Assembly: GCF_000422705.1 (NCBI RefSeq)
Contig: NZ_AUGO01000006.1
Coordinates: forward strand, 248,001-312,000
DNA length: 64,000 nucleotides
Source of the DNA: Flavobacterium soli DSM 19725
GTDB lineage: Bacteria > Bacteroidota > Bacteroidia > Flavobacteriales > Flavobacteriaceae
Direction: 5' to 3'
Shown here: one piece after another, positions 50,243 to 63,596 of the stretch
How the letters are laid out: each line of letters begins with the position of its first letter
Numbering within the stretch: position 1 is the first letter of the stretch
Translations under genes and position numbers: made by a program
The notes under the pieces: model-generated
What the model was told of the DNA's origin: nothing
Database searches by the model: none
What the model saw: the letters and a program-made list of their open reading frames with translations, nothing else

Positions 50243-51298
50243 ATGACGCTACTTATCATCATTATAGTACTTGCCCTGATTTTTGATTACATTAATGGTT
50301 TTCACGATGCTGCAAACTCAATCGCTACAATTGTTGCTACAAAAGTATTGACCCCATTTCAAGCAGTAGTTTGGGCAGCTTTCTTTAACTTCATGGCCTA
50401 TTTCATATCGAAATATTGGATTGGAGAATTTAAAATTGGTAATACAATTGCAAAATCAGTAAACGAAGATTTCATTAACCTTGAAGTAATTTTTGCAGGT
50501 CTTATAGCTGCAATTATTTGGAATTTAGCTACATGGAAACTTGGAATTCCATCTTCCTCTTCACATACACTATTAGGAGGTTTTATGGGAGCGGCTTTGG
50601 CACATGCTGGAGCTTTGGCTGTTAATGGTGTAGATGTTGTAAATTATGTAAAAGTAATTCCAACAGTTGCTTTTATCTTTTTGGCACCATTAATAGGTAT
50701 GACAATTGCCTATTTCTTGACAATTCTCATCATGAACATCTGCCGAAAGGCAAATCCTAGTAAAGCTGATAAATGGTTCAAAAGATTACAATTAGTATCT
50801 TCTGCCTTGTTCAGTTTAGGACACGGAGCTAACGATGCTCAGAAAGTTATGGGTATTATTGGAGCTGCTGTAATCTATTATCACTTAAAAATTGATATGG
50901 ATCCAAATTACATCAATGCTCCTGATTCTTTCAAATATTTCGTAAACGATTATGCCTGGGTTCCTTTTGTGAGTTTCACGGTTATTGGTTTGGGAACCAT
51001 GAGTGGTGGGTGGAAAATTGTAAAAACAATGGGTACAAAAATCACCAAAGTAACTTCACTTGAAGGTGTAAGTGCTGAAACTGCTGGAGCGATGACGCTC
51101 TATCTTTCGGAACATTTTGGAATTCCAGTTTCAACAACTCATACCATTACCGGAAGTATCATTGGAGTTGGAGTAACAAAACGTGTTTCGGCCGTTCGCT
51201 GGGGAGTGACCATCAACCTGCTTTGGGCTTGGATTTTAACGATTCCAGTATCAGCCATTATTGCTGCTATCATTTATTTTTTAATTAGCTTATTCTAA
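50243..51298 (+). CDS. pitA: Low-affinity inorganic phosphate transporter, Pit family
   Basis: Inner-membrane H+/metal-phosphate symporter of 351 residues, about ten helices in two inverted halves. Both signature GANDAANS-like repeats are present: FDYINGFHDAANSIATIVAT near 15-34 and LGHGANDAQKVMGI near 193-206; each is followed by a half with PSSSSHTLLGG (about 101-111) and PVSTTHTITGS (about 294-304). This duplication is diagnostic. It follows the DUF47 gene and is expected to be repressed or induced by phosphate through the upstream repeats. Confidence 0.95.
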   Translation: MTLLIIIIVLALIFDYINGFHDAANSIATIVATKVLTPFQAVVWAAFFNFMAYFISKYWIGEFKIGNTIAKSVNEDFINLEVIFAGLIAAIIWNLATWKLGIPSSSSHTLLGGFMGAALAHAGALAVNGVDVVNYVKVIPTVAFIFLAPLIGMTIAYFLTILIMNICRKANPSKADKWFKRLQLVSSALFSLGHGANDAQKVMGIIGAAVIYYHLKIDMDPNYINAPDSFKYFVNDYAWVPFVSFTVIGLGTMSGGWKIVKTMGTKITKVTSLEGVSAETAGAMTLYLSEHFGIPVSTTHTITGSIIGVGVTKRVSAVRWGVTINLLWAWILTIPVSAIIAAIIYFLISLF

Positions 51299-51497: not shown

Positions 51498-52961
51498 ATG
51501 AGATTATCCATCGAAAGAAAAGAGGTAAAAGTATATCCTGACCCCAAACGTGTAATTGCTAGGTATTTTTTTAACGGCGAAGAGAGAGCTTTATTTTTGA
51601 TAGAAAAGATTTTAGAAATGAGTAATGAACAAGTCTTTTCCATCGTTTCGCCATTGCTTCAGGATTTCTCCAAAAGGCATCGGAATATTACGAAGAAATT
51701 ACTCAAGCATTGCGAAAAAGTAAGACATTGCATAGAAAAAAAAGGTGCTGATTTTGACCAAATGAATATTTATACAAAGTATTTAATAGGTGCCTATTTT
51801 ACACACGAATATTCCATAGAATCGGCGGCTTTTTTTAATCCATCCATTATTTTAGATCCAGATCAAAGTCATCTCGAAGAAGGACAATCCCGACTTATAA
51901 TTAGTTTTAGGGCGGTTGGAGAAGGACATATATCGTCAGTAGTTTTTCGTCGGGCAATGATTGACAAGAACATGAATATTATTGTTATTCCAGCCGGAAA
52001 CTATGTAGACGAAGCCGAAAAAATGCATCAGATGATTTATCAAAAGAGTCTGTTTTTGAAAAAAGGCGAAGAAGCTGATATCAATGCAGATTTTCTAAAA
52101 GATGTAGATGAACGACTCGAAGAACGCTTTGATTATGAAAGCCTAAAACGATTAGTACTTGAAGCAAAAGAACAAACCAAGGACGAAAAAACCATCAGGC
52201 AATACAATCAAATTTTAGCCTTATCGGATAGTTATCGAAAAATAAGTTTTTCAAGGGATACGGATATTAGCGATCGAGTTATTTTTCCGATATCCGACTT
52301 TGAAAGCAAGGGAATTGAAGATGCTCGATTTGTAAAGTTCACAAAAGAAAACGGTCAGACGGTTTATTATGCAACTTATACGGCTTATGATGGTGTTCAT
52401 ATCATGCCGAAACTGTTGCAAACCACCGATTTTTATGATTTCAAGACTTCACCTTTAAATGGAGAAGGAGCAAAGAATAAAAATCTGGCTCTATTTCCTC
52501 GTAAAATTAATGGCAAATTTGTCATGATGTCCAGAATTGATGGATGGAATAACTATCTCATGTATTCAGACAATATTAATGTATGGGACGATCCAATAAA
52601 AATTCAAAGTCCATTATATCCATGGGAATTAGTTCAAATTGGAAATTGCGGTTCACCAATTGAAACCGAACATGGTTGGCTAGTCATGACACACGCCGTC
52701 GGACCAATGAGAAGGTATTGCATTGGTGCTTCATTATTAGATTTAGAACATCCGGAAAAAGAAATTGGTCGTTTGAGAGAACCTTTGATCATGCCAAATC
52801 CGGACGAACGTGAAGGATATGTTCCTAATGTTGTTTATTCTTGTGGATCAATTGTTCATAATGGGGAATTGATTATTCCTTATGGATTATCCGATCATAG
52901 TTCGGGTTTTGCAAGTGTAAATTTGGAACTTTTATTAAATAGGTTAATGAATGGCGGATAA
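51498..52961 (+). CDS. Glycoside hydrolase/phosphorylase family 130-like protein
   Basis: Protein of 487 residues without signal peptide. The C-terminal ~340 residues look like a five-bladed beta-propeller of GH130 (beta-mannoside phosphorylases and hydrolases): FNPSIIL, SFRAVGEGHISSVVFRR, SKGIEDARFVKF, LFPRKINGKFVMMSRIDG, WELVQIGNCGSPIETEHGWL, VPNVVYSCGSIVHNGELIIPYG. These are the standard GH130 blade motifs including the IEDAR and conserved Asp residues. The N-terminal ~130 residues (helical, SIVSPLLQDFSKRHRNI) are an extra part found in a subgroup. Substrate probably beta-1,2- or beta-1,4-mannosides; not decidable here. It stands alone between terminators. Confidence 0.85.
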   Translation: MRLSIERKEVKVYPDPKRVIARYFFNGEERALFLIEKILEMSNEQVFSIVSPLLQDFSKRHRNITKKLLKHCEKVRHCIEKKGADFDQMNIYTKYLIGAYFTHEYSIESAAFFNPSIILDPDQSHLEEGQSRLIISFRAVGEGHISSVVFRRAMIDKNMNIIVIPAGNYVDEAEKMHQMIYQKSLFLKKGEEADINADFLKDVDERLEERFDYESLKRLVLEAKEQTKDEKTIRQYNQILALSDSYRKISFSRDTDISDRVIFPISDFESKGIEDARFVKFTKENGQTVYYATYTAYDGVHIMPKLLQTTDFYDFKTSPLNGEGAKNKNLALFPRKINGKFVMMSRIDGWNNYLMYSDNINVWDDPIKIQSPLYPWELVQIGNCGSPIETEHGWLVMTHAVGPMRRYCIGASLLDLEHPEKEIGRLREPLIMPNPDEREGYVPNVVYSCGSIVHNGELIIPYGLSDHSSGFASVNLELLLNRLMNGG

Positions 52962-53095: not shown

Positions 53096-53122
53096 TTTGC
53101 ACTTTTCTTTTTTATATATTTG
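53096..53122 (+). promoter_or_regulatory. Promoter of the IS1-InsA-like gene
   Basis: TTG (53096-53098), 16 bp, TATATTTG (53115-53122), a perfect -7 box at slightly short spacing. It starts the carboxylate/acetate module. Confidence 0.55.
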
Positions 53123-53155
53123 CTAAAATAGTATATTTATGCAAAATTTATATAC

Positions 53156-53575
53156 ATGGAGATTTTAGCATGTCCAAAATGTCAGGATAATCATATCGTA
53201 AAAAGTGGAATCATCAAAGACAGGCAAAGGTATTTGTGCAAAAAATGCAACTACTTCTTTACAGTCAATAAAATCGGAAAAAAGATTGATAATTACTATG
53301 TTACCAAAGCCCTTCAACTTTATTTAGAAGGCTTGAGTTTTCGTGAAATCGAGCGTATTATTGGGGTTTCACATGTAACGGTTAGCAATTGGATAAAGGA
53401 ATTCAACATCAAGAAACCTGCTCAAGCAGATTATCATCCAACCTACAAGATTTTCAACCATTTAGAACTGGTAGAGTACCTTAAAAACAAAGATCAATTA
53501 TCAGGTGCTGGAATGATTATTACCGAACTTGGCGATAAATTTATGCTTATAAAATGGGAACGTTTTAAAGATTAG
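53156..53575 (+). CDS. Stand-alone IS1 InsA-like zinc-ribbon/HTH DNA-binding protein
   Basis: Protein of 139 residues. An N-terminal zinc ribbon (C6, C9, C28, C31; CPKCQDNHIVKSG... QRYLCKKCNYFF) and a helix-turn-helix (about 56-82, YLEGLSFREIERIIGVSHVTV) match the DNA-binding half of IS1 transposase (InsA). There is no InsB catalytic frame, no DDE residues, no terminal inverted repeats and no target duplication, and the last ~45 residues (HLELVEYLKNKDQLSGAG...LIKWERFKD) are a separate small domain. It therefore looks like a transposase-derived regulator. It precedes the porin gene by 102 bp with its own promoter. Role in controlling the following genes is inferred from position only. Confidence 0.7.
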   Translation: MEILACPKCQDNHIVKSGIIKDRQRYLCKKCNYFFTVNKIGKKIDNYYVTKALQLYLEGLSFREIERIIGVSHVTVSNWIKEFNIKKPAQADYHPTYKIFNHLELVEYLKNKDQLSGAGMIITELGDKFMLIKWERFKD

Positions 53576-53677
53576 CTATACTACTTTACAATTATATATA
53601 TTAAAATATTTCTACAACGATATAATTATGCAATTTGGTACTGTCGAAAGACATTAACCCGTTAACCAAAAAGCATT

Positions 53678-55054
53678 ATGAAACGAATTTATCTGATAGC
53701 AGCCTTAGTCTGCTTTACAGCGAAAGCTTTCTCGCAAGGTTCACCTGATTACGGTTCTGGAATGAAATTCAACCTAAAGGAAGATGGTTCCAAATACCTC
53801 AGGGTTTTAGCTTGGAACCAAGTTTGGCTCCGCTCTAGCCAAATGAATCCCGGAACGATGATTAATGGTGAAGAAGCTTCTTCAAGCACGGACATCGGAA
53901 ACAGACGACTCAGAATTCTTCTTCATGCACAACTTTCGCCACGTTATATGATCGTGACGCATTTCGGAATCAATAATCAGACATTTACAAATGGAGGTGC
54001 GGCTGGAACTACAGGAACAGGAGGATATGGACAAGGAAAAAAACCAGGTTTATTTTTCCACGATGCTTGGAACGAATATGCTTTAGTACTTCCGCAACCC
54101 GACAAAAAATTCAGTCTTTCTGTTGGAGGCGGTTTGCATTATTATATGGGACTTTCACGTATGACGATGTCTTCAACCTTAAACTACTTGGCTATTGATG
54201 CACCCATTTTTAACTGGCCATTAATCGAAAATTCTGATCAATTTGCCCGTCAAGGGGGATTATTCGCTAAAGGAAAATATGGGAAATTTGAATACCGTGT
54301 GAGCTACAACAAACCATTTGCTACTAATTTGACTCCAACAGATGTTCCAACTTCAGATTTGGCTGTTGCTGTTGACAATAGTGGCAACACAAAATGGTCG
54401 AAAGCAGGTTATTTTGAGTACCAATTTTTAGATGTAGAATCAAATGTACTTCCATATAAAGTGGGTTCCTACCTTGGAACAAAAAAAGTTTTCAACGTTG
54501 GGGCTGGTTTCTATAATGCCCCAGATGCAACTAGAACTTCAGTTGCAGGAAATGTTGAAAAACATGACATCACTTTACTTTCTGCCGATGTTTTCGTTGA
54601 TATGCCAATCGGAAAACCCGAAAAGAAAATGGCCATAACGGCTTACAGTGTTTTCTACGATTATGATTTTGGCCCAAATTATTTGAGAAATTTAGGAATC
54701 ATGAATGTGGGAGTTGCAAATCCTGATTTTACTGGATCAACTGCATTGGCTGGAGCCGGAAACCTTCAACCAACAATCGGTTCGGGAAATATCTGGTACA
54801 CCCAAGCGGGAGTTTTGCTTCCAACTTCTCAAGAAAAACCAAAAGTGAGAATCCAACCTTATGGAGCTTTCACCTATAAAGATTTTGATGCTTTGGAACA
54901 ATCGAGCAGTCAGTTTGATATTGGAGCGAATTTTTTCATAGACGGTCATCACGCCAAAATTACTACACAATATTCAACGCGACCTGTTTACACAGCACCC
55001 GACACAAAAACCTCAAAAGGCGAATTTACACTTCAATTGCAAATTTATCTATAA
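53678..55054 (+). CDS. Outer-membrane porin-like beta-barrel protein
   Basis: Exported protein of 458 residues. A signal peptide (KRIYLIAALVCFTAKAFSQ) is followed by alternating aromatic/polar strands typical of outer-membrane barrels, ending in ...GEFTLQLQIYL, a hydrophobic C-terminal strand. RRLRILLHAQLSPRYMIVTHFG, KFSLSVGGGLHYYMGLSRMT and FDIGANFFIDGHHAKITTQY resemble phosphate-porin/OprP-like and DcaP-like barrels. The MFS transporter gene follows after 17 bp, so the pair most likely moves the same small organic acid across the outer and inner membranes. Confidence 0.8.
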   Translation: MKRIYLIAALVCFTAKAFSQGSPDYGSGMKFNLKEDGSKYLRVLAWNQVWLRSSQMNPGTMINGEEASSSTDIGNRRLRILLHAQLSPRYMIVTHFGINNQTFTNGGAAGTTGTGGYGQGKKPGLFFHDAWNEYALVLPQPDKKFSLSVGGGLHYYMGLSRMTMSSTLNYLAIDAPIFNWPLIENSDQFARQGGLFAKGKYGKFEYRVSYNKPFATNLTPTDVPTSDLAVAVDNSGNTKWSKAGYFEYQFLDVESNVLPYKVGSYLGTKKVFNVGAGFYNAPDATRTSVAGNVEKHDITLLSADVFVDMPIGKPEKKMAITAYSVFYDYDFGPNYLRNLGIMNVGVANPDFTGSTALAGAGNLQPTIGSGNIWYTQAGVLLPTSQEKPKVRIQPYGAFTYKDFDALEQSSSQFDIGANFFIDGHHAKITTQYSTRPVYTAPDTKTSKGEFTLQLQIYL

Positions 55055-55071
55055 ACTAAAAACAACTTTAT

Positions 55072-56610
55072 ATGAGTACAACATCTACAAAAGGCATTTG
55101 GAAAGTCATCACGGCTTCCTCACTCGGAACACTGATCGAATGGTATGATTTCTACATTTTTGGAAGTTTAGCCGTAGTAATTTCTACCAAATTCTTTCCA
55201 GCCGATAACCCAACGGCAGCATTTTTATCTACATTGGCAACCTTTGCAGCAGGTTTCGTAGTTCGACCATTTGGAGCCTTATTCTTCGGAAGATTGGGCG
55301 ATTTGATCGGAAGAAAATACACCTTTATGGTAACGCTTTTATTAATGGGAGGTGCTACTTTCCTTATTGGATGTGTTCCTGCCTACGAAACCATTGGTTT
55401 CATGGCACCGCTTTTAGTATTGATCTTGAGGTTATTACAAGGTTTGGCCCTTGGTGGAGAATATGGTGGAGCAGCAACTTATGTAGCCGAACACGCTCCT
55501 AAAGGCGAACGCGGTTATTGGACATCTTGGATTCAGACCACTGCAACTTTCGGATTATTTATTTCATTGATGGTAATCCTTTTAACAAGAAGCGTTTTGA
55601 CTCCAGAGCAATTTGACGAATGGGGTTGGAGAGTACCGTTTTGGGTATCCATCCTAATGGTTTTTGTATCGTATATCATCAGAAAAAAGATGGATGAATC
55701 TCCTGTTTTTGCCAAAGCCAAAGCTGAAGGAAAAACGAGTACAAACCCATTAAAGGAAAGCTTCGGAAACAAATACAACTTAAAATTCGTTTTATTAGCT
55801 TTATTTGGAGCTGCAATGGGACAAGGTGTTGTTTGGTACACAGGACAATTCTACGCAATGAGTTTCCTTAAAACGGTAATGTTTGTAGATTCTTCTCAAG
55901 CAGATGGATTGTTAGGTTTGGCATTGTTATTCGGAACACCATTTTTCTTGTTTTTCGGATGGTTGAGTGATAAAATGGGAAGAAAAGTAATCATGATGGG
56001 AGGGATGCTTCTGGCCATTTTACTATACCGACCAATTTATAAGACAATGTATGAAACTACAGATATCAGTCTGAAAACGGAAATCGTTCAAAACGCAAAA
56101 TTGGTAGCGATTACCAAAGAAAACAGCCATCAACAATTGGATTCCATCTATACAACAACCAAAGAATTTACTGATGGCACAAAATGGCAACAAGTCAAGA
56201 CACTACATTTAGAAAACGGCAATCCAGCTTTAGATGAAAAAGGTGTCGCTAAAGCGGATACAAAAACAACCGTTACCATCAATTCATCTGATAGATGGTC
56301 ATTAATTTGGTTGATTTTTATCCAGGTAATTTTCGTAACGATGGTTTACGGACCAATTGCAGCATTCTTGGTAGAAATGTTCCCAGTAAAAATCAGATAT
56401 ACGTCGATGTCCTTGCCATATCACATCGGAAATGGTATCTTCGGTGGACTTCTTCCGGCAATTTCAACTTATTTTGTAACCAATGCAAAAGAAGGCGGAA
56501 ATCCAGAATTCTACCTAGAAGGGTTGTGGTATCCGATTGTAATTGCAGCCATAAGTTTCTGTATAGGAATGGTGTATTTGAAAAGAAAAAATAATATTGA
56601 AAACGATTAA
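55072..56610 (+). CDS. MFS transporter, metabolite:H+ symporter (MHS) type
   Basis: Inner-membrane proton symporter of 512 residues, 12 helices. MHS features: SSLGTLIEWYDFYIFGSLA in helix 1, RPFGALFFGRLGDLIGRKYTF (the MFS RxGRR-type loop, ~70-90) and GGEYGGAATYVAEHAPKGERGYWTS (the MHS E-Y-G-G block). Relatives such as KgtP, ShiA and ProP carry organic acids or osmolytes. An extra ~80-residue hydrophilic segment between helices 8-9 (about residues 325-405, with KENSHQQLDSIYTTTKEF) is not usual in the family. Expected substrate: a short carboxylate, given the porin, sensor kinase and acs around it; this is inference. Confidence 0.9.
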   Translation: MSTTSTKGIWKVITASSLGTLIEWYDFYIFGSLAVVISTKFFPADNPTAAFLSTLATFAAGFVVRPFGALFFGRLGDLIGRKYTFMVTLLLMGGATFLIGCVPAYETIGFMAPLLVLILRLLQGLALGGEYGGAATYVAEHAPKGERGYWTSWIQTTATFGLFISLMVILLTRSVLTPEQFDEWGWRVPFWVSILMVFVSYIIRKKMDESPVFAKAKAEGKTSTNPLKESFGNKYNLKFVLLALFGAAMGQGVVWYTGQFYAMSFLKTVMFVDSSQADGLLGLALLFGTPFFLFFGWLSDKMGRKVIMMGGMLLAILLYRPIYKTMYETTDISLKTEIVQNAKLVAITKENSHQQLDSIYTTTKEFTDGTKWQQVKTLHLENGNPALDEKGVAKADTKTTVTINSSDRWSLIWLIFIQVIFVTMVYGPIAAFLVEMFPVKIRYTSMSLPYHIGNGIFGGLLPAISTYFVTNAKEGGNPEFYLEGLWYPIVIAAISFCIGMVYLKRKNNIEND

Positions 56611-56621
56611 AAGATAAAAAT

Positions 56622-56846
56622 ATGAATTTAATAAAAAGATTTCTCGGATTAATATGGTTGGCATTAGCCCTTGCCGCAGCTTATTTTTGTATTTTTGAGT
56701 TTGGATACCCAAAATTCGTTTCTGGCAAACAGGAGGATTTGGTTTTTGGAATAATCATTCTTTTTGTCCTGACACCGTTAATTGTTTTAGGACTTGGAAC
56801 CTTCGGATATTTTGCCATAACGGGTGAATACGACGATAAGAAATAA
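56622..56846 (+). CDS. Small two-helix membrane protein, DUF6814-like
   Basis: Protein of 74 residues with two hydrophobic helices (about 8-27 and 41-66) and a short loop (FGYPKFVSGKQED); the end reads YFAITGEYDDKK. I recall a family like this (DUF6814) always beside MHS-type transporters in Bacteroidota. It starts 12 bp after the transporter stop and is probably a transporter accessory subunit. It is followed by a stem-loop. Confidence 0.65.
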   Translation: MNLIKRFLGLIWLALALAAAYFCIFEFGYPKFVSGKQEDLVFGIIILFVLTPLIVLGLGTFGYFAITGEYDDKK

Positions 56847-56867
56847 TAATAGTTTTTAGTTGAAGTT

Positions 56868-56898
56868 ATAGCTCCTGAATTTTCGGGAGCTATGGCTT
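56868..56898 (+). terminator. Hairpin within the module, partial terminator
   Basis: ATAGCTCCTGA (56868-56878) / TCGGGAGCTAT (56883-56893), 11-bp stem with one wobble, 4-nt loop, then GGCTTTTTAT. It lies between the transporter half and the sensor half of the module, so it may uncouple or attenuate the two. Confidence 0.65.
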
Positions 56899-56910
56899 TT
56901 TATAAATCCA

Positions 56911-57105
56911 ATGAAAAAAAGACACGAACAAAAATTAATCATTCTTTCGCTAATATTGATACTTTGCTTCAATATGCCACTGTTGCTCATTTTTGACAGT
57001 GCTACTTCAGTTGGAGGAATGCCATTGGTGTATGTGTATTTTTTCTCGCTTTGGATATTTTCCGTATTAATTTCATTGCTGGTTATAAAAAGATATTATG
57101 AGTAG
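56911..57105 (+). CDS. CbrX-like small membrane protein
   Basis: Peptide of 64 residues with two hydrophobic helices (about 8-26 and 38-60) and a GGMPLVYVYFFSLW motif like DUF3311/CbrX-type small subunits of sodium:solute symporters. Its last 8 bases overlap the start of the symporter-fused kinase gene (ATG at 57098 inside ...ATGAGTAG), so translation is coupled. In Pseudomonas a small CbrX overlaps cbrA in the same way, as I remember; the family link to this one is inference. Confidence 0.65.
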   Translation: MKKRHEQKLIILSLILILCFNMPLLLIFDSATSVGGMPLVYVYFFSLWIFSVLISLLVIKRYYE

Positions 57106-59800
57106 CATAGGTTTATTAATCGTCTTATCCATTTATTTGGCTTTGCTCTTTGTAATTGCACACTGGGCCGAAAAGCGAGGCAATTCAAAATGGACCAATA
57201 ATCCTTATGTTTACACCTTGTCGTTGGCGGTTTATTGCAGTGCCTGGACCTATTACGGAAGCATTGGTGTTGCCGCAAATTCAGGACTGAACTACCTTCC
57301 CATTTATATCGGTCCCATCATCATAATACCAGCTTGGATTATTGTTTTGAGAAAGATCATCCGAATTTCCAAAGTAAATAAAATTTCCAGCATTGCCGAT
57401 TTCATTTCCCTCCGATATGGAAACAGCCGTTTTTTAGGAGCTTTGGTAACTCTGATTTGTATTTTTGGAATTCTGCCTTACATCGCTTTACAGCTAAAAG
57501 CAATCTCTGAAACGTTTCACGTAGTAACGAAAACCTCCTCAAATTCCAATATCTTTAATGATACAACCACTTATGTAGCTATTGCATTAGCCTTATTTGC
57601 TTCCTATTACGGCACTCGTTATGTAGATGCTTCGGAAAAAAGAAAAGGAATCGTAACCGCTGTTGCAATGGAATCCATCCTGAAATTATTCTTTTTTATC
57701 CTGCTAGGAATTTATGTCACTTTTTTTGTCTTTGATGGCTTCGATGATATTTATGCACAAGCAAGTTTGCTCGAAAATTTCAAGGAAAAAAATACAATTG
57801 GCGGACTTCCACAAGCTATAAATTGGTTCTTTTTGTGTGTACTATCGTTGTTTGCCATATTTCTTTTGCCGAGACAATTTCAAATGTCGGTAGTTGAAAA
57901 TAACCGTGAAAGCCACATCAAGACTGCTGTTTGGCTTTTTCCGTTGTATCTTTTATTGTTTAATATTTTTGTGTATCCTGTCGCTTGGGGCGGAAACATT
58001 TTATTTGATGGTCAGAATGCAAATCCTGATACGTATTCCTTATTGATTCCTCAATTTTTTAATAATCAGCTTGTTACGGTTATGGTTTTCCTTGGCGGGT
58101 TTTCGGCAGCTATTTCAATGATTGTAGTTTCCTCTATTGGACTTTCTACCATGCTAAGCAACAATGTCTTGATTCCATATGGTTTTCTGGGAAGATTGCA
58201 GAGTGAAGTCCAAGAAAGCAATACTAAAAAGATTGTAAACATTAGGAAAGTCGGTATTTTTTCACTCATCATTCTATCATATTTTATTTACAGATACTTT
58301 GTTTTAGAATACAATCTCTTTTCAATAGGAATGGTGTCATTTGTCATCATTGCACAACTAGCTCCAGCTTTTTTTGGTGCAATTTTGTGGCGAAGAGGTT
58401 CCCGAAATGGGGCTGTTACTGGAATGATAATTGGATTCATAATTTGCACTTATACTTTATTGATTCCGTATGCCATCGGAATTACAAATTTTGATAGCAA
58501 TTTTATAGCAAATGGCCCTTTTGGAATAGCGCTTTTAAAGCCTTTTCAATTGTTCGGAATTGATTATCTCGATCCGGTTCCACAAGCTTTATTTTGGAGT
58601 ATTTTATTCAATACATTGGCCTATTTAGCTGTTTCTGTAAGCTTCAAGGGAAATTATCGAGAACGAAATTATGCCGAAATGTTCGTTGATATTGACAAAT
58701 ATATTACGATGCACGAAAACGCCTTCATCTGGAAAGGAACAGCTTACACGAGTGATATCCAAAAAGTATTGAATCGATTTTTAGGCGAAGACCGAACAAA
58801 AAGAGCACTTAATCTTTTCCGCTTAAAATATAATGTTGAAAAAACCCAAGAATTAGCCGATGCCCGATTGATAAAATTTGCCGAGAATTTACTGACAGGT
58901 CATATTGGTACGGCTTCCGCCAAAATTTTAATTGCGAGTGTAGTCAAGGAAGAAAAAGTATCACTTCCGGAAGTGCTGAAGATCTTGGAAGAATCAAAGG
59001 AAAATATTATCATCAATAAAAAACTGACCGAAACTTCACGAGAACTGAATACGATCACAGCCCAATTAAAAAAAGCTAATGAAGATTTAATCAGTAAGGA
59101 CAAGCAAAAAGATGAATTTTTGGATACCATTTCACACGAATTGAGAACACCGATTACTGCAATTCGCGCTGCAACCGAAATCCTGCACGATGATGATGAT
59201 GTGCCACACGAAATGAAAAAGCAGTTTCTTCAGAATATCATCACTGAATCTGACCGTTTGAACCGATTGATTTCAAAGATACTAGACCTCGAAAAATTTG
59301 ATTCCGGTAAGCAAAAAATTTATGTGACCAAGAATAATATCTATCACACCATTTCTGAAACATTAAAACAACTCAACCAGCTTATTGAAAATAAAAACAT
59401 CAAGGTGGATCTTGTTTCCGAAAAAAATATAGTGAAAGCATTTTATGACGAAGATAGAATTACGCAAGTCTTAAATAATTTGCTATCAAATGCAATAAAA
59501 TTTTGCCCTGAACAAGACGGAATAATTACTATCTTTATTAAAGAAACGGATCAAATAATAGAGGTTGGAGTAGAAGACAACGGAAAAGGAATTGATGTAA
59601 ACGACTTCGAATCCATATTTGATAAGTTTTATCAATCATCAAACCAAAACATCAGGAAACCTGTCGGAAGTGGATTAGGTTTAGCTATTTGTAAAAAAAT
59701 AATAGAACATCATAGAGGTAAAATTTGGGCTGAAAATATTCCGAAATCAGGAGCACGAATTATATTTACAATTCCAAAATATATTAAAGAGGAACATTAA
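57098..59800 (+). CDS. Sodium:solute symporter-histidine kinase fusion, CbrA-like
   Basis: Sensor kinase of 900 residues. About 13 membrane helices of an SSS (sodium:solute symporter) domain (residues 1-510; WTNNPYVYTLSLAVYCSAWTY near 32-52, TTTYVAIALALFASYYG), a STAC linker domain (about 555-640, ADARLIKFAENLLTGHIGTAS), a coiled coil, HisKA with H680 (DTISHELRTPITAIRA) and HATPase with NLLSNAIKF, DNGKGI and GSGLGLAIC. There is no PAS domain, unlike Pseudomonas CbrA. The transporter-like part probably senses a substrate or flux. A lone receiver gene follows with no gap and the upstream small membrane protein overlaps its start. Confidence 0.95.
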   Translation: MSSIGLLIVLSIYLALLFVIAHWAEKRGNSKWTNNPYVYTLSLAVYCSAWTYYGSIGVAANSGLNYLPIYIGPIIIIPAWIIVLRKIIRISKVNKISSIADFISLRYGNSRFLGALVTLICIFGILPYIALQLKAISETFHVVTKTSSNSNIFNDTTTYVAIALALFASYYGTRYVDASEKRKGIVTAVAMESILKLFFFILLGIYVTFFVFDGFDDIYAQASLLENFKEKNTIGGLPQAINWFFLCVLSLFAIFLLPRQFQMSVVENNRESHIKTAVWLFPLYLLLFNIFVYPVAWGGNILFDGQNANPDTYSLLIPQFFNNQLVTVMVFLGGFSAAISMIVVSSIGLSTMLSNNVLIPYGFLGRLQSEVQESNTKKIVNIRKVGIFSLIILSYFIYRYFVLEYNLFSIGMVSFVIIAQLAPAFFGAILWRRGSRNGAVTGMIIGFIICTYTLLIPYAIGITNFDSNFIANGPFGIALLKPFQLFGIDYLDPVPQALFWSILFNTLAYLAVSVSFKGNYRERNYAEMFVDIDKYITMHENAFIWKGTAYTSDIQKVLNRFLGEDRTKRALNLFRLKYNVEKTQELADARLIKFAENLLTGHIGTASAKILIASVVKEEKVSLPEVLKILEESKENIIINKKLTETSRELNTITAQLKKANEDLISKDKQKDEFLDTISHELRTPITAIRAATEILHDDDDVPHEMKKQFLQNIITESDRLNRLISKILDLEKFDSGKQKIYVTKNNIYHTISETLKQLNQLIENKNIKVDLVSEKNIVKAFYDEDRITQVLNNLLSNAIKFCPEQDGIITIFIKETDQIIEVGVEDNGKGIDVNDFESIFDKFYQSSNQNIRKPVGSGLGLAICKKIIEHHRGKIWAENIPKSGARIIFTIPKYIKEEH

Positions 59801-60166
59801 ATGAAAAAGATATTAATTGTAGACGACGAACCAAATATTGTGATGTCATTGGAATATACTTTTAAGAAAAATAATTTCGAGGTTTATATTGCCCGTGATG
59901 GACAAGAAGCGTTGGATATTCTAGAAAGTTCCCAACCCAATATTATCATACTTGATATAATGATGCCAAATGTTGACGGATACAATACGTTGGAACAAAT
60001 CAAGAAAGATGATCGTTTAAAAGATACTAAAGTCATTTTTCTAACAGCAAAAAACAAGGAAAAAGACATTGAAAAAGGGCTTGCTCTTGGAGCAAACTTA
60101 TATATTACGAAGCCATTTTCTGTAAAAAAATTGGTAGAACAAGTCAATGAATTACTAGAAAATTAA
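59801..60166 (+). CDS. Single-domain response regulator, partner of the symporter kinase
   Basis: Receiver protein of 121 residues: DDEP at 8-11, phosphoacceptor D52 (IILDIMMPNVDG), T in FLTAKNKEKD, K in ITKPFSVKKL. It begins at the base after the kinase stop codon. CbrB of Pseudomonas is a sigma54 activator, but this gene encodes only the receiver, so the output must be a separate protein. The nearest DNA-binding candidate is the IS1-InsA-like protein, with no direct evidence for contact. Confidence 0.94.
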   Translation: MKKILIVDDEPNIVMSLEYTFKKNNFEVYIARDGQEALDILESSQPNIIILDIMMPNVDGYNTLEQIKKDDRLKDTKVIFLTAKNKEKDIEKGLALGANLYITKPFSVKKLVEQVNELLEN

Positions 60167-60263
60167 GGAATATCGTATATACTAATTTAGCATAAATATA
60201 TGAAATAATAACCTAATGTTATTTATATTTACAATATCAATACAATTAAAAAATTAGACGATT

Positions 60264-62171
60264 ATGAGTTACTATCAAGTCAAAAATCTAGAACAATATT
60301 TCAAGCACTATAATAAATCAATTCGCGAGCCTAGAAAATTTTGGGGTAAAATTGCCGAAGAAAATTTCACATGGTACCAACAATGGGACAAAGTGGTAGA
60401 ATTTAATATGGCTGAAGCCGAAATTAGTTGGTTTAGTGGAGCAAAAGTAAACATCGTTAAAAACTGCATTGATAGACATTTGAATAGACGAGGCAATAAA
60501 ACTGCCATCATTTTTGAACCAAATGATCCCAAAGAAGAAGCACAACATATAACATATAATGACTTACACCAACGTGTTTGTAAAATGGCAAACGTATTGA
60601 GAGAACAAGGCATCGAAAAAGGGGATAGGGTTTGCATCTACCTTCCGATGATTCCTGAATTGGCTGTATCGGTGTTAGCCTGTGCCCGAATTGGAGCCAT
60701 ACATTCAGTTGTTTTCGCTGGTTTTTCAGCTTCGGCAGTTGCAACAAGAATCAATGATTCCGATTGTAAAATGGTAATTACTTCTGATGGAGGATATCGT
60801 GGAAACAAGACTATTGATCTGAAAGGAATTATCGACGAAGCTTTAACAACTTGCCCATCCGTTAAGACAGTTTTGGTAGCAAAAAGAATCAATTCCGATG
60901 TGAATATGACTGCAGGAAGAGATCAATGGTTACAGCCTCTTCTGGATGAAGTTTCGGATAATAATGTGGCCGAAATCATGGATGCTGAAGATCCTTTATT
61001 TATACTTTATACTTCTGGTTCTACCGGAAAACCTAAAGGAATGGTACACACAACGGCTGGATATATGGTGTACACAGCTTATACTTTTAAAAACGTTTTC
61101 AATTACGAAGAAAATGATATTTATTGGTGTACAGCTGATATTGGCTGGATTACAGGACATTCCTATATTCTTTACGGACCACTTTTAAATGGAGCGACAA
61201 CCGTCATTTTTGAAGGAGTTCCATCATATCCTGATTTCAGCAGATTTTGGGAAGTTATTGAAAAACATAAAGTTACACAATTTTATACGGCTCCAACCGC
61301 AATTCGTTCATTGGCAAAAGAAAGCCTTGATTTTGTGCAAAGATTTCCTTTAAGTTCTCTAAAAGTGATTGGATCTGTTGGAGAGCCTATCAACGAAGAA
61401 GCTTGGCATTGGTACAACGACCATGTAGGTGGAAAACGCTGTCCATTAGTAGATACTTGGTGGCAAACCGAAACGGGCGGAATCATGATATCACCAATTC
61501 CGTTTGTAACCCCAACAAAACCAACCTATGCAACTTTACCATTACCTGGAATTCAACCTGTTTTGATGGATGAAAAACGTAATGAAATTGAAGGCAATCA
61601 AGTGGTTGGAAGTTTGTGTATCAAATTTCCTTGGCCAGGAATCGCAAGAACCATTTGGGGCGACCATCAAAGGTATAAGGACACATATTTTTCAACTTTT
61701 CCAGGTAAATATTTCACAGGTGATGGGGCTTTGAGAGACGAAGTGGGTTATTATAGAATCACTGGTCGAGTTGATGATGTAGTGATTGTTTCGGGTCATA
61801 ATTTGGGAACTGCTCCAATAGAAGATGCCATCAACGAACATCCAGCTGTTGCGGAATCTGCAATTGTTGGTTTTCCACACGACATCAAAGGAAATGCTTT
61901 ATATGGTTATGTGATTTTGAAAGATACAGGTGAAAGCCGTGACAGGAAAAATCTTTCGAACGAAATCAATCAATTAATATCCAATCAAATTGGGCCAATT
62001 GCAAAACTGGATAAGATTCAGTTTGTATCAGGTTTGCCAAAAACACGTTCAGGGAAAATCATGAGAAGAATTTTGCGTAAGATTGCTGAAGGAGATTTCT
62101 CAAACTTTGGAGATACCACTACTTTATTGAATCCAGAAATTGTAGATGAAATTAAAGAAGGAAGATTGTAA
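60264..62171 (+). CDS. acs: Acetyl-CoA synthetase, AMP-forming
   Basis: Activates acetate to acetyl-CoA through an acetyl-AMP intermediate. 635 residues, as in the family. Motifs: YTSGSTGKPKGMVHT (about 250-264), VGEPINEEAWHWYN, WWQTETGGIMIS (about 399-410), YRITGRVDDVVIVSGHNLG, and the conserved C-terminal lysine K598 in TRSGKIMRRILRK, the residue that in other bacteria is acetylated to switch the enzyme off. It sits just downstream of the symporter-kinase/receiver pair in the same orientation (97-bp gap), suggesting regulation by the sensed substrate, as acs is often so controlled in gamma-proteobacteria. Confidence 0.97.
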   Translation: MSYYQVKNLEQYFKHYNKSIREPRKFWGKIAEENFTWYQQWDKVVEFNMAEAEISWFSGAKVNIVKNCIDRHLNRRGNKTAIIFEPNDPKEEAQHITYNDLHQRVCKMANVLREQGIEKGDRVCIYLPMIPELAVSVLACARIGAIHSVVFAGFSASAVATRINDSDCKMVITSDGGYRGNKTIDLKGIIDEALTTCPSVKTVLVAKRINSDVNMTAGRDQWLQPLLDEVSDNNVAEIMDAEDPLFILYTSGSTGKPKGMVHTTAGYMVYTAYTFKNVFNYEENDIYWCTADIGWITGHSYILYGPLLNGATTVIFEGVPSYPDFSRFWEVIEKHKVTQFYTAPTAIRSLAKESLDFVQRFPLSSLKVIGSVGEPINEEAWHWYNDHVGGKRCPLVDTWWQTETGGIMISPIPFVTPTKPTYATLPLPGIQPVLMDEKRNEIEGNQVVGSLCIKFPWPGIARTIWGDHQRYKDTYFSTFPGKYFTGDGALRDEVGYYRITGRVDDVVIVSGHNLGTAPIEDAINEHPAVAESAIVGFPHDIKGNALYGYVILKDTGESRDRKNLSNEINQLISNQIGPIAKLDKIQFVSGLPKTRSGKIMRRILRKIAEGDFSNFGDTTTLLNPEIVDEIKEGRL

Positions 62172-62267: not shown

Positions 62268-63596
62268 ATGATGAACATCGATAATTTAATAGAAGCACTC
62301 CAGTTTTCGCCTAACAATATTCCACTAAAATTATTACTCGCTAATTCGCTATTAAAAGTCAATAGATATGAAGAAGCTGCCTTGCATTTCCAAGAAACAA
62401 TTGCTTTAGATCCAACTAATATTGAGGCCAAAATGGGACTTTCAGAACTGCATTTTCAAGAAAGTAATTATTCAAAATCTGTTGTAATTTTAGAAGATAT
62501 CCTAAGAAATAACAGCAATCATTTGGAAGCATTATTACTGTATACAAAAGTTTTAGTAAAGGAAAATGCTATTCAAGACGCCATTAAAAGTTACCAACAA
62601 ATTTTACAAATCAATCCTAGATTTGAAAACGAGGAACTGGATAAAATTTTAAGAGTTTCTTCTCAAAGCAAAAATATTTTTGAAGATGAGGATAGTGATT
62701 TTGAAGATTTTGGAAGCGAAATGTCCTATTTGATTTCGAAACCTGACATGAATTTTCAAGATGTTGGCGGAATGGAAGAGGTTAAAAAAGAAATCGAGAT
62801 GAAAATCATACATCCTCTAAATTTCCCAGATTTATACAAAGCTTATGGCAAAAAAGCAGGCGGTGGAATTTTACTGTATGGACCTCCTGGCTGTGGAAAA
62901 ACATATCTGGCAAAGGCTACAGCAGGTGAAATCAAATCAAATTTTATTTCAGTAGGGCTAAATGATATTTTAGATATGTGGGTTGGAAATAGCGAAAAAA
63001 ACCTTCACGAAGTCTTTGAATATGCCCGGAAAAACAAACCTTGCGTATTGTTTTTTGACGAAATTGATGCTTTGGGAGCCAGCCGAAATGACATGAAACA
63101 TTCAGGAAATAAAGTACTCATCAATCAGTTTTTGCAAGAATTAGACGGTGTTGATACTGATAATGAAGGGATTCTGGTTCTTGGTGCTACAAATGCACCT
63201 TGGCAGTTAGACAATGCTTTTAGAAGGCCTGGTCGTTTTGACCGAATCATTTTTGTTCCGCCACCAGATGAGGATGCAAAAGAATCAATTCTTAAAATAA
63301 AACTGAAAAACAAGCCCGTAAATGCAATTGATTATAAGAAAATCACTAAGAATTTGGCCGATTTTTCGGGTGCCGATATTGAAGCCATAATTGATATCGC
63401 GATCGAAAGTAAGTTGCAAGACGCCTTCAAAACTGGAATTCCGCAACCTCTTGAAAATAAAGATTTGGCCGAAGCCGTAAAAAAGCATCGCCCAACAACT
63501 AAAGAATGGTTTCAAACCGCAAAAAATTATGCTCTATATTCAAATGAATCAGGACTTTATGACCCTATTTTGAGTTTTTTAAAAATAAAAAAATAA
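62268..63596 (+). CDS. TPR-AAA+ ATPase of the VCP/FtsH-like AAA branch
   Basis: Cytoplasmic ATPase of 442 residues with one AAA module. N-terminal tetratricopeptide repeats (about 5-120; NIPLKLLLANSLLKVNRYEEA, LDPTNIEAKMGLSELHFQ), an acidic linker (135-152), then the AAA domain: GGMEEVKKEIEMK, Walker A YGPPGCGKT (K211), aromatic pore-loop-like MWVGNSEK (237-244), Walker B LFFDEID (D264/E265), second-region ATNAPWQLDNAFRRPGRFDRI with R320/R323 as candidate Arg fingers, and a C-terminal lid. Only one AAA domain, unlike Cdc48. A TPR protein gene follows after 3 bp. Probably unfolds or remodels proteins; substrates unknown. Confidence 0.85.
   Translation: MMNIDNLIEALQFSPNNIPLKLLLANSLLKVNRYEEAALHFQETIALDPTNIEAKMGLSELHFQESNYSKSVVILEDILRNNSNHLEALLLYTKVLVKENAIQDAIKSYQQILQINPRFENEELDKILRVSSQSKNIFEDEDSDFEDFGSEMSYLISKPDMNFQDVGGMEEVKKEIEMKIIHPLNFPDLYKAYGKKAGGGILLYGPPGCGKTYLAKATAGEIKSNFISVGLNDILDMWVGNSEKNLHEVFEYARKNKPCVLFFDEIDALGASRNDMKHSGNKVLINQFLQELDGVDTDNEGILVLGATNAPWQLDNAFRRPGRFDRIIFVPPPDEDAKESILKIKLKNKPVNAIDYKKITKNLADFSGADIEAIIDIAIESKLQDAFKTGIPQPLENKDLAEAVKKHRPTTKEWFQTAKNYALYSNESGLYDPILSFLKIKK

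Follow-up and report, generated by a model that had tools for sequence, protein, structure and literature searches.

The window, a 64,000-nucleotide stretch of the Flavobacterium soli DSM 19725 genome (contig NZ_AUGO01000006.1, positions 248,001 to 312,000), contains a cluster of eight genes, all on the plus strand and together spanning positions 53156-62171, that begins with a relative of InsA, a protein of the insertion sequence (IS) IS1. This InsA-like regulator (53156..53575; 139 amino acids) has a four-cysteine zinc ribbon, a helix-turn-helix (HTH) region and a C-terminal strand-helix-strand-strand part. No DDE catalytic domain (insB) is present in the product, and the next gene instead encodes an outer-membrane porin (53678..55054; 458 amino acids; weak family match, NF040900 at 42.8 bits against a cut-off of 150). 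It is followed by an MHS-type metabolite/H+ symporter (55072..56610; 512 amino acids; TIGR00883 at 359 bits, below the cut-off of 443) and a DUF6814 small membrane protein (56622..56846; 74 amino acids; PF20664). The second half of the cluster encodes a CbrX-like small protein that matches no family (56911..57105; 64 amino acids), an SLC5 sensor histidine kinase whose start the preceding gene overlaps by 8 nt (57098..59800; 900 amino acids; HisKA, PF00512, and HATPase_c, PF02518), a receiver-only response regulator with nothing attached to the receiver (59801..60166; 121 amino acids) and the acetyl-CoA synthetase Acs (60264..62171; 635 amino acids; TIGR02188 at 953 bits, above the cut-off of 725).

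A preliminary description of this DNA had proposed a one-directional module running from the outer membrane to acetyl-CoA with its own sensor. The linked porin, MHS, SLC5 kinase, lone receiver and Acs genes bear out this layout, and so does comparison with other Flavobacterium genomes. The Flavobacterium locus set comprises the best 80 of 565 loci encoding an InsA-like relative; gene-order counts use the 72 with 7.5 kb of sequence after the InsA-like gene, the other 8 being too short. In 71 of these 72 loci (the exception is L071), the SLC5 kinase and lone receiver lie downstream of the InsA-like gene on the same strand. The transporter slot is occupied by an MHS gene in 52 loci and by a VC_2705-type SSS symporter (TIGR03648) in 20, never by both, and in the examples inspected, the SSS symporter is accompanied by a DUF4212 small subunit. 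A PrpE-like ligase, for which the best NCBIfam match is propionate--CoA ligase (742 bits, below the cut-off of 955), is found in 63 of the 72 loci and is absent from the window. At one locus (L135:13581-17441, genome G053), PrpE-like and Acs parts share one uninterrupted frame of 1286 amino acids, a possible natural ligase fusion. By the names of its families, the locus looks like a short-monocarboxylate module, and the alternation of MHS and SSS transporters fits short carboxylates. The genes on either side are seemingly unrelated: a PiT-like phosphate permease (50243-51298; assigned by eye), a GH130-type gene (51498-52961) and a TPR-AAA ATPase (62268-63596).

The InsA-like protein scores 81 bits against NF033558 (IS1 transposase), below the cut-off of 100, and is above the cut-off for the zinc models NF048018 and NF050000 and for Pfam HTH_23. 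Its four cysteines (Cys6, Cys9, Cys28 and Cys31) are invariant among 48 aligned sequences. An AlphaFold2 model (mean pLDDT 85.6) consists of a zinc ribbon, three helices and the C-terminal strand-helix-strand-strand part, and the C-terminal tail is alignable with the zero-frame tail of InsA from an intact IS1-family element (locus L211). A fold search with the model returned nothing at E 0.001 or better; Lrp/AsnC-type regulators headed its rows at TM scores of 0.24-0.29 and were not used. The gene is present as a single copy in the window's genome (E 0.001), and among 37 pairs with dS of 0.1-1.0 (other pairs were excluded), its median dN/dS is 0.02, a low value that reflects purifying selection. 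In a midpoint-rooted tree, a branch with support of 100/100 separates 35 module-linked InsA-like proteins from IS1 InsA. The protein has 2164 relatives at E 1e-5, and many of the 120 listed bear the JGI name 'transposase-like protein'.

Genes encoding InsA alone occur elsewhere as well. A second group, 32-36% identical, is found next to a C39-peptidase ABC exporter in three genomes, all from the same family (L219:2174-2665 in G381, L220:2135-2626 in G437 and L222:2273-2716 in G359; exporter families were scanned for L219 only). In L219 and L220, the gene has IS1-end-like sites on both sides, some 475 bp from each other, and in L222 on one side; the group is perhaps an independent domestication. 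Genome G285 has 11 InsA-like matches, 10 of them without a stop, and the paired IS1-end motif is found in none of six loci (L212-L217); this is possibly an expanded family of InsA-type regulators.

Alignments of 77 upstream and 81 downstream regions revealed conserved blocks on both sides of the InsA-like gene, which, compared by eye, are one motif in opposite directions. The upstream block is a 17-bp motif, TTGCTAA-N5-TATA, from which a matrix of 17 columns (20.1 bits) was trained on the regions upstream of insA in 25 diverse loci. By construction, each training locus has a site; the scores run from 14.8 to 24.2 bits, and shuffling gives every one a p of at most 0.01. In 23 of the 25, a second unit of 6 to 22 bits stands exactly 19 bp away in tandem. 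In some Flavobacterium, this second unit is weak, at 6 to 7 bits. The window belongs to the training set: its candidate operator unit 1, TTGCTAAAATAGTATAT (53120..53136, plus strand; 22.9 bits), resembles an IS1 end and overlaps a candidate -7 box, and its weak candidate unit 2 (53139..53155, plus strand; 6.3 bits) begins 19 bp after unit 1. Overall, a site of 16 bits or more precedes insA in 72 of the 76 Flavobacterium loci with room for one. At L134 (G166), the two units are seemingly spaced by one extra base; this locus has InsA-like, MHS and acs genes with no porin match between them, and a kinase is absent from its genome at E 1e-60.

The downstream block is represented in the window by a candidate inverted operator before the porin operon, CTATACTACTTTACAA (53576..53591, minus strand), a form one base shorter that was recognized by pattern and alignment. 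The shorter form is the usual one between insA and the porin gene, where 29 of 80 sites reach 14 bits under a 16-column matrix. The pattern CTATA-N3..5-TTWAC, which was framed after the alignment had been seen, is present in the 80 bp that follow insA at 78 of 80 loci, compared with 4 of 6696 random windows.

The same motif matches the ends of certain IS1 elements. Locus L211 carries an intact 750-bp IS1-family element with ends GGTATTGCTAATTTAGTATAG and GGTATTGCTAAAAAAGTATAG and, read by eye, an insA gene, insB in the -1 frame and an 8-bp target repeat; IS1 target repeats measure 8-9 bp. Under the matrix, which was trained only on host insA promoters, these two ends score 21.0 and 20.6 bits. 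The ends of a Tenacibaculum element, identical in two plasmids, score 20.3 and 10.3 bits, one end of a Methylobacter element scores 13.4 bits, and those of the Methanomethylovorans and G192 elements fall below 8 bits; all four share GG-N-ATTG-N-TAA. Among six plasmid records, those of Hymenobacter and Emticicia have no motif-like ends. In the window, a span of 472 bp takes in the InsA-like gene together with a forward site before it and an inverted site after it, as would be expected of an element that lost insB, and this may be the history of the gene. IS1 InsA is reported to bind both ends of its element and to repress the promoter that overlaps the left end (PMC12428005). The preliminary description had called the regulator IS1-derived, and this connection now extends from the protein to its candidate operators, which also match IS1 terminal repeats.

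Sites also occur before the ligase genes. The window's candidate acs operator, ATGCTAAATTAGTATAT (60177..60193, minus strand; 20.3 bits), lies outside the training regions and reaches p 0.005, the least possible value with the 200 shuffles used for promoters outside training. An exact WTGCTAANTNNNTATA occurs once in the 4.0-Mb genome, at the acs site, and the reversed control pattern occurs twice. The co-regulation with acs that had been anticipated is thus predicted from this candidate operator, and it stands as a prediction from sequence. Among non-training promoters, p 0.005 was reached at 6 of 19 acs promoters (the window, L133, L192, L194, L201 and L203), 1 of 11 prpE promoters (L207) and, with the 17-column form, 2 of 25 porin promoters (L197 and L210), a third and weaker porin site having p 0.01 or less. 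In L201 and L203, the acs site is one and the same as the divergent insA operator. L192 and L194 matter most: in these two genomes of one genus, insA-porin-MHS and kinase-receiver-acs are on different contigs, and acs still has the motif. No site of at least 12 bits was found with the 17-column matrix before 16 MHS, 9 DUF6814, 5 DUF4212 and 8 SSS genes, nor before 19 CbrX-like, 8 kinase and 10 receiver genes. Sites of at least 12 bits precede 19 of 58 acs and 14 of 63 prpE genes, compared with 16 of 6527 random windows.

The distribution of strong sites bears on which protein the motif belongs to. In 1.44 Mb from the 80 Flavobacterium loci, 111 matches reach 16 bits or more; a first sorting put 72 of them before insA, 15 in the interval between prpE and acs, 9 behind the receiver gene, a single one between insA and the porin gene, and the remaining 14 elsewhere. 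Among these last 14, 12 lie just before acs or prpE, 1 precedes a second porin copy (L069) and 1 is unexplained (L005:545), so that 109 of the 111 stand before insA, porin, prpE or acs. One could suppose that the motif belongs to another regulator, which also controls the InsA-like gene, and that IS1 ends resemble it by chance or through some promoter feature common to both. Binding by the InsA-like protein is indeed a prediction, and the TTG and TATA of the motif could be promoter parts, the TATA merging with the -7-like box at insA. However, only 2 of the 111 strong matches lie outside the module's insA, porin, prpE and acs promoters, one of them before the second porin; there is no strong site where the InsA-like gene is absent; and the matrix from host insA promoters gives scores of 21.0 and 20.6 for the two ends of an IS1 element. 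This explanation is accordingly considered improbable. Among 20 family members that lack the InsA-like gene, no acs locus (98 kb in all) attains 16 bits, the best score being 13.0, and 13 kinase-only loci (243 kb) include no match of 16 bits. The copy at L069:5824 (21.3 bits), about 560 bp before the second porin gene, suggests a further regulon member.

We favor, with some reserve, the reading that the InsA-like gene is a domesticated IS1 repressor for which the old element ends now serve as operators, and that it switches on the porin, transporter, prpE and acs genes upon a signal from the SLC5 kinase relayed by the receiver. By analogy with IS1 InsA, which is described as binding the ends of its element (PMC12428005), the protein would bind the 17-bp motif.

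The positions of the sites relative to promoters suggest how such binding might act. Bacteroidota promoters have the consensus TTG at -33 and TAnnTTTG at -7. In 87 of 101 insA promoters, a -7-like box starts 12 bp inside the first site, and an operator overlapping this box would repress; this is predicted to be an autorepressor position. At acs and prpE, counting from where the inverted site starts, a box TANNTTT[AGT] is offset by exactly 47 bp in 34 of 40 promoters, and every other offset accounts for 5 or fewer. The candidate -7 box of acs in the window, TATATTTA (60224..60231, plus strand), is likewise 47 bp from the operator start. Such an operator, centered near -50, leaves about 30 bp between its end and the -7-like box downstream; from there the bound protein could touch RNA polymerase, and the spacing would be that of an activator. 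At the porin operon, the candidate -7 box GCAATTTG (53630..53637, plus strand) is weak; of 71 loci in which an AATTTGG-type box and the porin site were both identified, 67 have them 54-57 bp apart. Many of the species behind the insA, acs and prpE counts are close kin, and those counts are not independent.

The alternative that the InsA-like protein acts simply as a repressor wherever it binds, like InsA of IS1, with induction by release from DNA and with the kinase and receiver acting elsewhere, draws on IS1 InsA itself, which is said to repress its promoter and to compete at both ends (PMC12428005), and on the overlap of the module's own operator with a candidate -7 box. It also gains from genome G166, which has InsA, MHS and acs without the kinase, and from the -33 box, which most insA promoters lack just as most targets do, so that its absence gives no support to activation. 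The single spacing at acs and prpE (34 of 40, many of them close kin), with the operator about 30 bp upstream of the -7-like box, nevertheless fits polymerase contact better than blocking, and the association of the InsA-like gene with the kinase in 25 of 28 genomes, clearly unlinked in two, also weighs against this alternative. On balance, we regard plain repression as rather unlikely.

If the InsA-like protein is instead an activator coupled to the kinase, the sensor side of the module would supply the signal. Residues 6-461 of the kinase match the CbrA structure (chain 10ed, E 6e-56; E 1e-55 in a second search), which has the SLC5 symporter fold, and its predicted model matches SGLT1 chains from rank 45 onward. 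Lys196 is aligned with CbrA Lys196, reported to fill the Na2 site (PMC13022988), and His680, the phospho-histidine in the DHp/CA part, is, like Lys196, invariant in 40 aligned relatives. The SSS-STAC-kinase architecture originally proposed holds for its SLC5, HisKA and HATPase_c portions. The putative STAC part gave no credible sequence match, and four helices are predicted there, at 551-613. In Pseudomonas, cbrX overlaps cbrA by 17 nt, and its product is described as packing on the SLC5 domain (PMC6591292, PMC13022988). The 'CbrX-like' label of the small protein here rests on size, look, position and the 8-nt gene overlap and not on sequence homology, with no match among PDB chains at E 10; its relatives adjoin the kinase gene in 32 of 41 loci searched. 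A carboxylate in the SLC5 domain would change kinase activity, and the receiver, once phosphorylated, would change the InsA-like protein, perhaps at its C-terminal part.

Counting the InsA-like gene at E 2e-48 or better, a class sample of 296 genomes has it in 26 and the kinase in 27, with both in 25 of the 28 that have either; the G340 kinase in this count is a partial match with one stop. A phylum sample of 247 genomes, which overlaps the class sample, has the InsA-like gene in 14, the kinase in 24 and both in 13. The two genes are clearly unlinked in G346 and G390, and in G340, the module halves lie near contig ends of different contigs, where linkage is not decidable. These counts also bear on the view that the signal of the kinase and receiver goes to other outputs, a common operon being all that links the pair to the InsA regulon. 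In favor of this view, the receiver is kept in InsA-less lineages, where it is followed by a PAS/degenerate-kinase-like or an exonuclease-ended protein (L123:6091-7038, L126:6864-7883 and L129:5440-7593); a DNA-binding protein was sought after the receiver in InsA-less loci and was found in neither of the family-scanned ones, L126 and L129. Yet 25 of the 27 kinase-bearing genomes in the class sample also have InsA, even though the two genes are unlinked in G346 and G390, and we consider separate outputs doubtful. In the kinase tree, one branch parts 32 InsA-bearing from 10 InsA-less kinases, and the receiver residue after [ST][AS][KRQ] is N, S, T or Q in 31 receivers with InsA and G in 9 without. 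The kinase and receiver probably predate the InsA link, or can at least be separated from it.

A more far-reaching version of the domestication reading can be offered tentatively, as less probable than the reading itself: the whole IS may have been domesticated as a circuit, with InsA as the two-component output, the left end as an autorepressed promoter, the right end as the activator site of the porin, further ends before prpE and acs, and a phosphorylated lone receiver touching the C-terminal part of InsA.

Several points weigh against a domesticated activator under kinase control. Binding, expression, the sign of control, the ligand and the receiver-to-regulator step are all predictions from DNA and protein sequence, and the known InsA of IS1 is, as described, a repressor (PMC12428005). 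A site of at least 12 bits is found in only 30 of the 69 loci with a readable upstream region of prpE or acs; this partial occurrence is explained by the fact that only gaps of 60 bp or more leave room for a promoter. Sites are present in 28 of 37 regions with a gap of at least 60 bp before prpE or acs and in 0 of 79 with a shorter one (116 of 121 upstream regions; the five dropped for an odd gap or missing neighbor all have a site, by subtraction). A TTG at -33 distance is found in 8 of 34 target promoters and also in only 5 insA promoters; since the box is rare at both, its absence does not favor activation. Across whole genomes, the motif shows no enrichment: the stricter TTGCTAANNNNNTATAG gives 25 matches and 25 for its reverse in 26 genomes, and therefore only a local regulon, not a large one, is claimed. 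By coordinates, 11 of these 25 matches lie inside the module and one (G072) precedes an L-lactate/OFA-type MFS gene. This perfect copy (L229, L233; G072:C28:86457-86473) is on a contig other than the module's. The loose form TTGYWAANTWNTATA, with one mismatch allowed, proved unfit to define a regulon, giving 206 matches in the AT-rich genome of the window and 244 for the reversed control.

The link to IS is likewise bounded. Among 15 distant loci of InsA homologues, two strong ends together with insB are found in L211 only, L219 and L220 have paired sites without insB, and 8 have no site of 11 bits. Because most of these loci lack such a pair, the likeness of the motif to IS1 ends appears to hold for an IS1 subgroup only. 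A strict IS-end pattern has 1 match in 395 genomes, with no transposase in the surrounding 3 kb. On the sensor side, the receiver also follows the kinase without InsA in 9 of 10 InsA-less loci examined (of 13). The receiver-only output noted at the outset is therefore real, in that nothing is attached to the receiver, and not specific to the InsA system. The difference in the receiver residue may represent one event, with the kinase tree splitting once, and G166, with InsA, MHS and acs and no kinase, indicates that the halves can live apart.

The InsA-like module was found in 15 families of the sampled class, and no literature on it was found in open-access papers. It presents a concrete bacterial case in which the host apparently uses a transposon repressor as a transcription factor and the transposon ends as operators for it. 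In environmental Bacteroidota, the name 'transposase-like protein' hides what is probably a regulator of growth-substrate use, namely of acetate and propionate. The module also offers a possible answer to the question of how a receiver-only response regulator obtains a transcriptional output.

The gene cluster is thus genuine and conserved. On the sensor side it is a variant of CrbS/CbrA; what is new is the regulator side. Like InsA/InsAB' of IS1 as described in PMC12428005, the InsA-like regulator has a zinc and HTH region and would be a repressor encoded right after the left end, with a promoter overlapping that end. Unlike them, the window gene has no insB or DDE domain and is a single copy with conserved neighbors and with sites before host genes. 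Recruitment of a DNA binder from a mobile element to host genes has been described for Ner/SfsB and for TldR (PMC8987985, PMC13418256), although Ner is a phage HTH protein and TldR is RNA-guided; IS1 has no occurrence in the main text of PMC8987985. The Pseudomonas putida CbrX/CbrA system shares with the module a small gene overlapping the kinase gene, an SLC5 kinase and the Lys196 that aligns with the reported Na2-site lysine (PMC13022988, PMC6591292). The two differ in that the CbrA partner, CbrB, is a sigma-54 activator and the reported ligand is histidine, whereas the module is linked to acs and its STAC region is unrecognized by sequence. A precedent is CrbS/CrbR (MxtR/ErdR) of Pseudomonas and Vibrio, in which an SLC5-type kinase controls acs and the symporter gene actP through a DNA motif before each, CrbS/R activating both at an inverted repeat (PMC5715377). 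CrbS is reported to be a hybrid kinase (PMC5436829) and CrbR is of the LuxR type, whereas the module's kinase has no receiver and its partner is receiver-only, with no DNA-binding part. In place of a LuxR-type regulator, the module's candidate DNA binder is a relative of IS1 InsA, and its motif is a different one.

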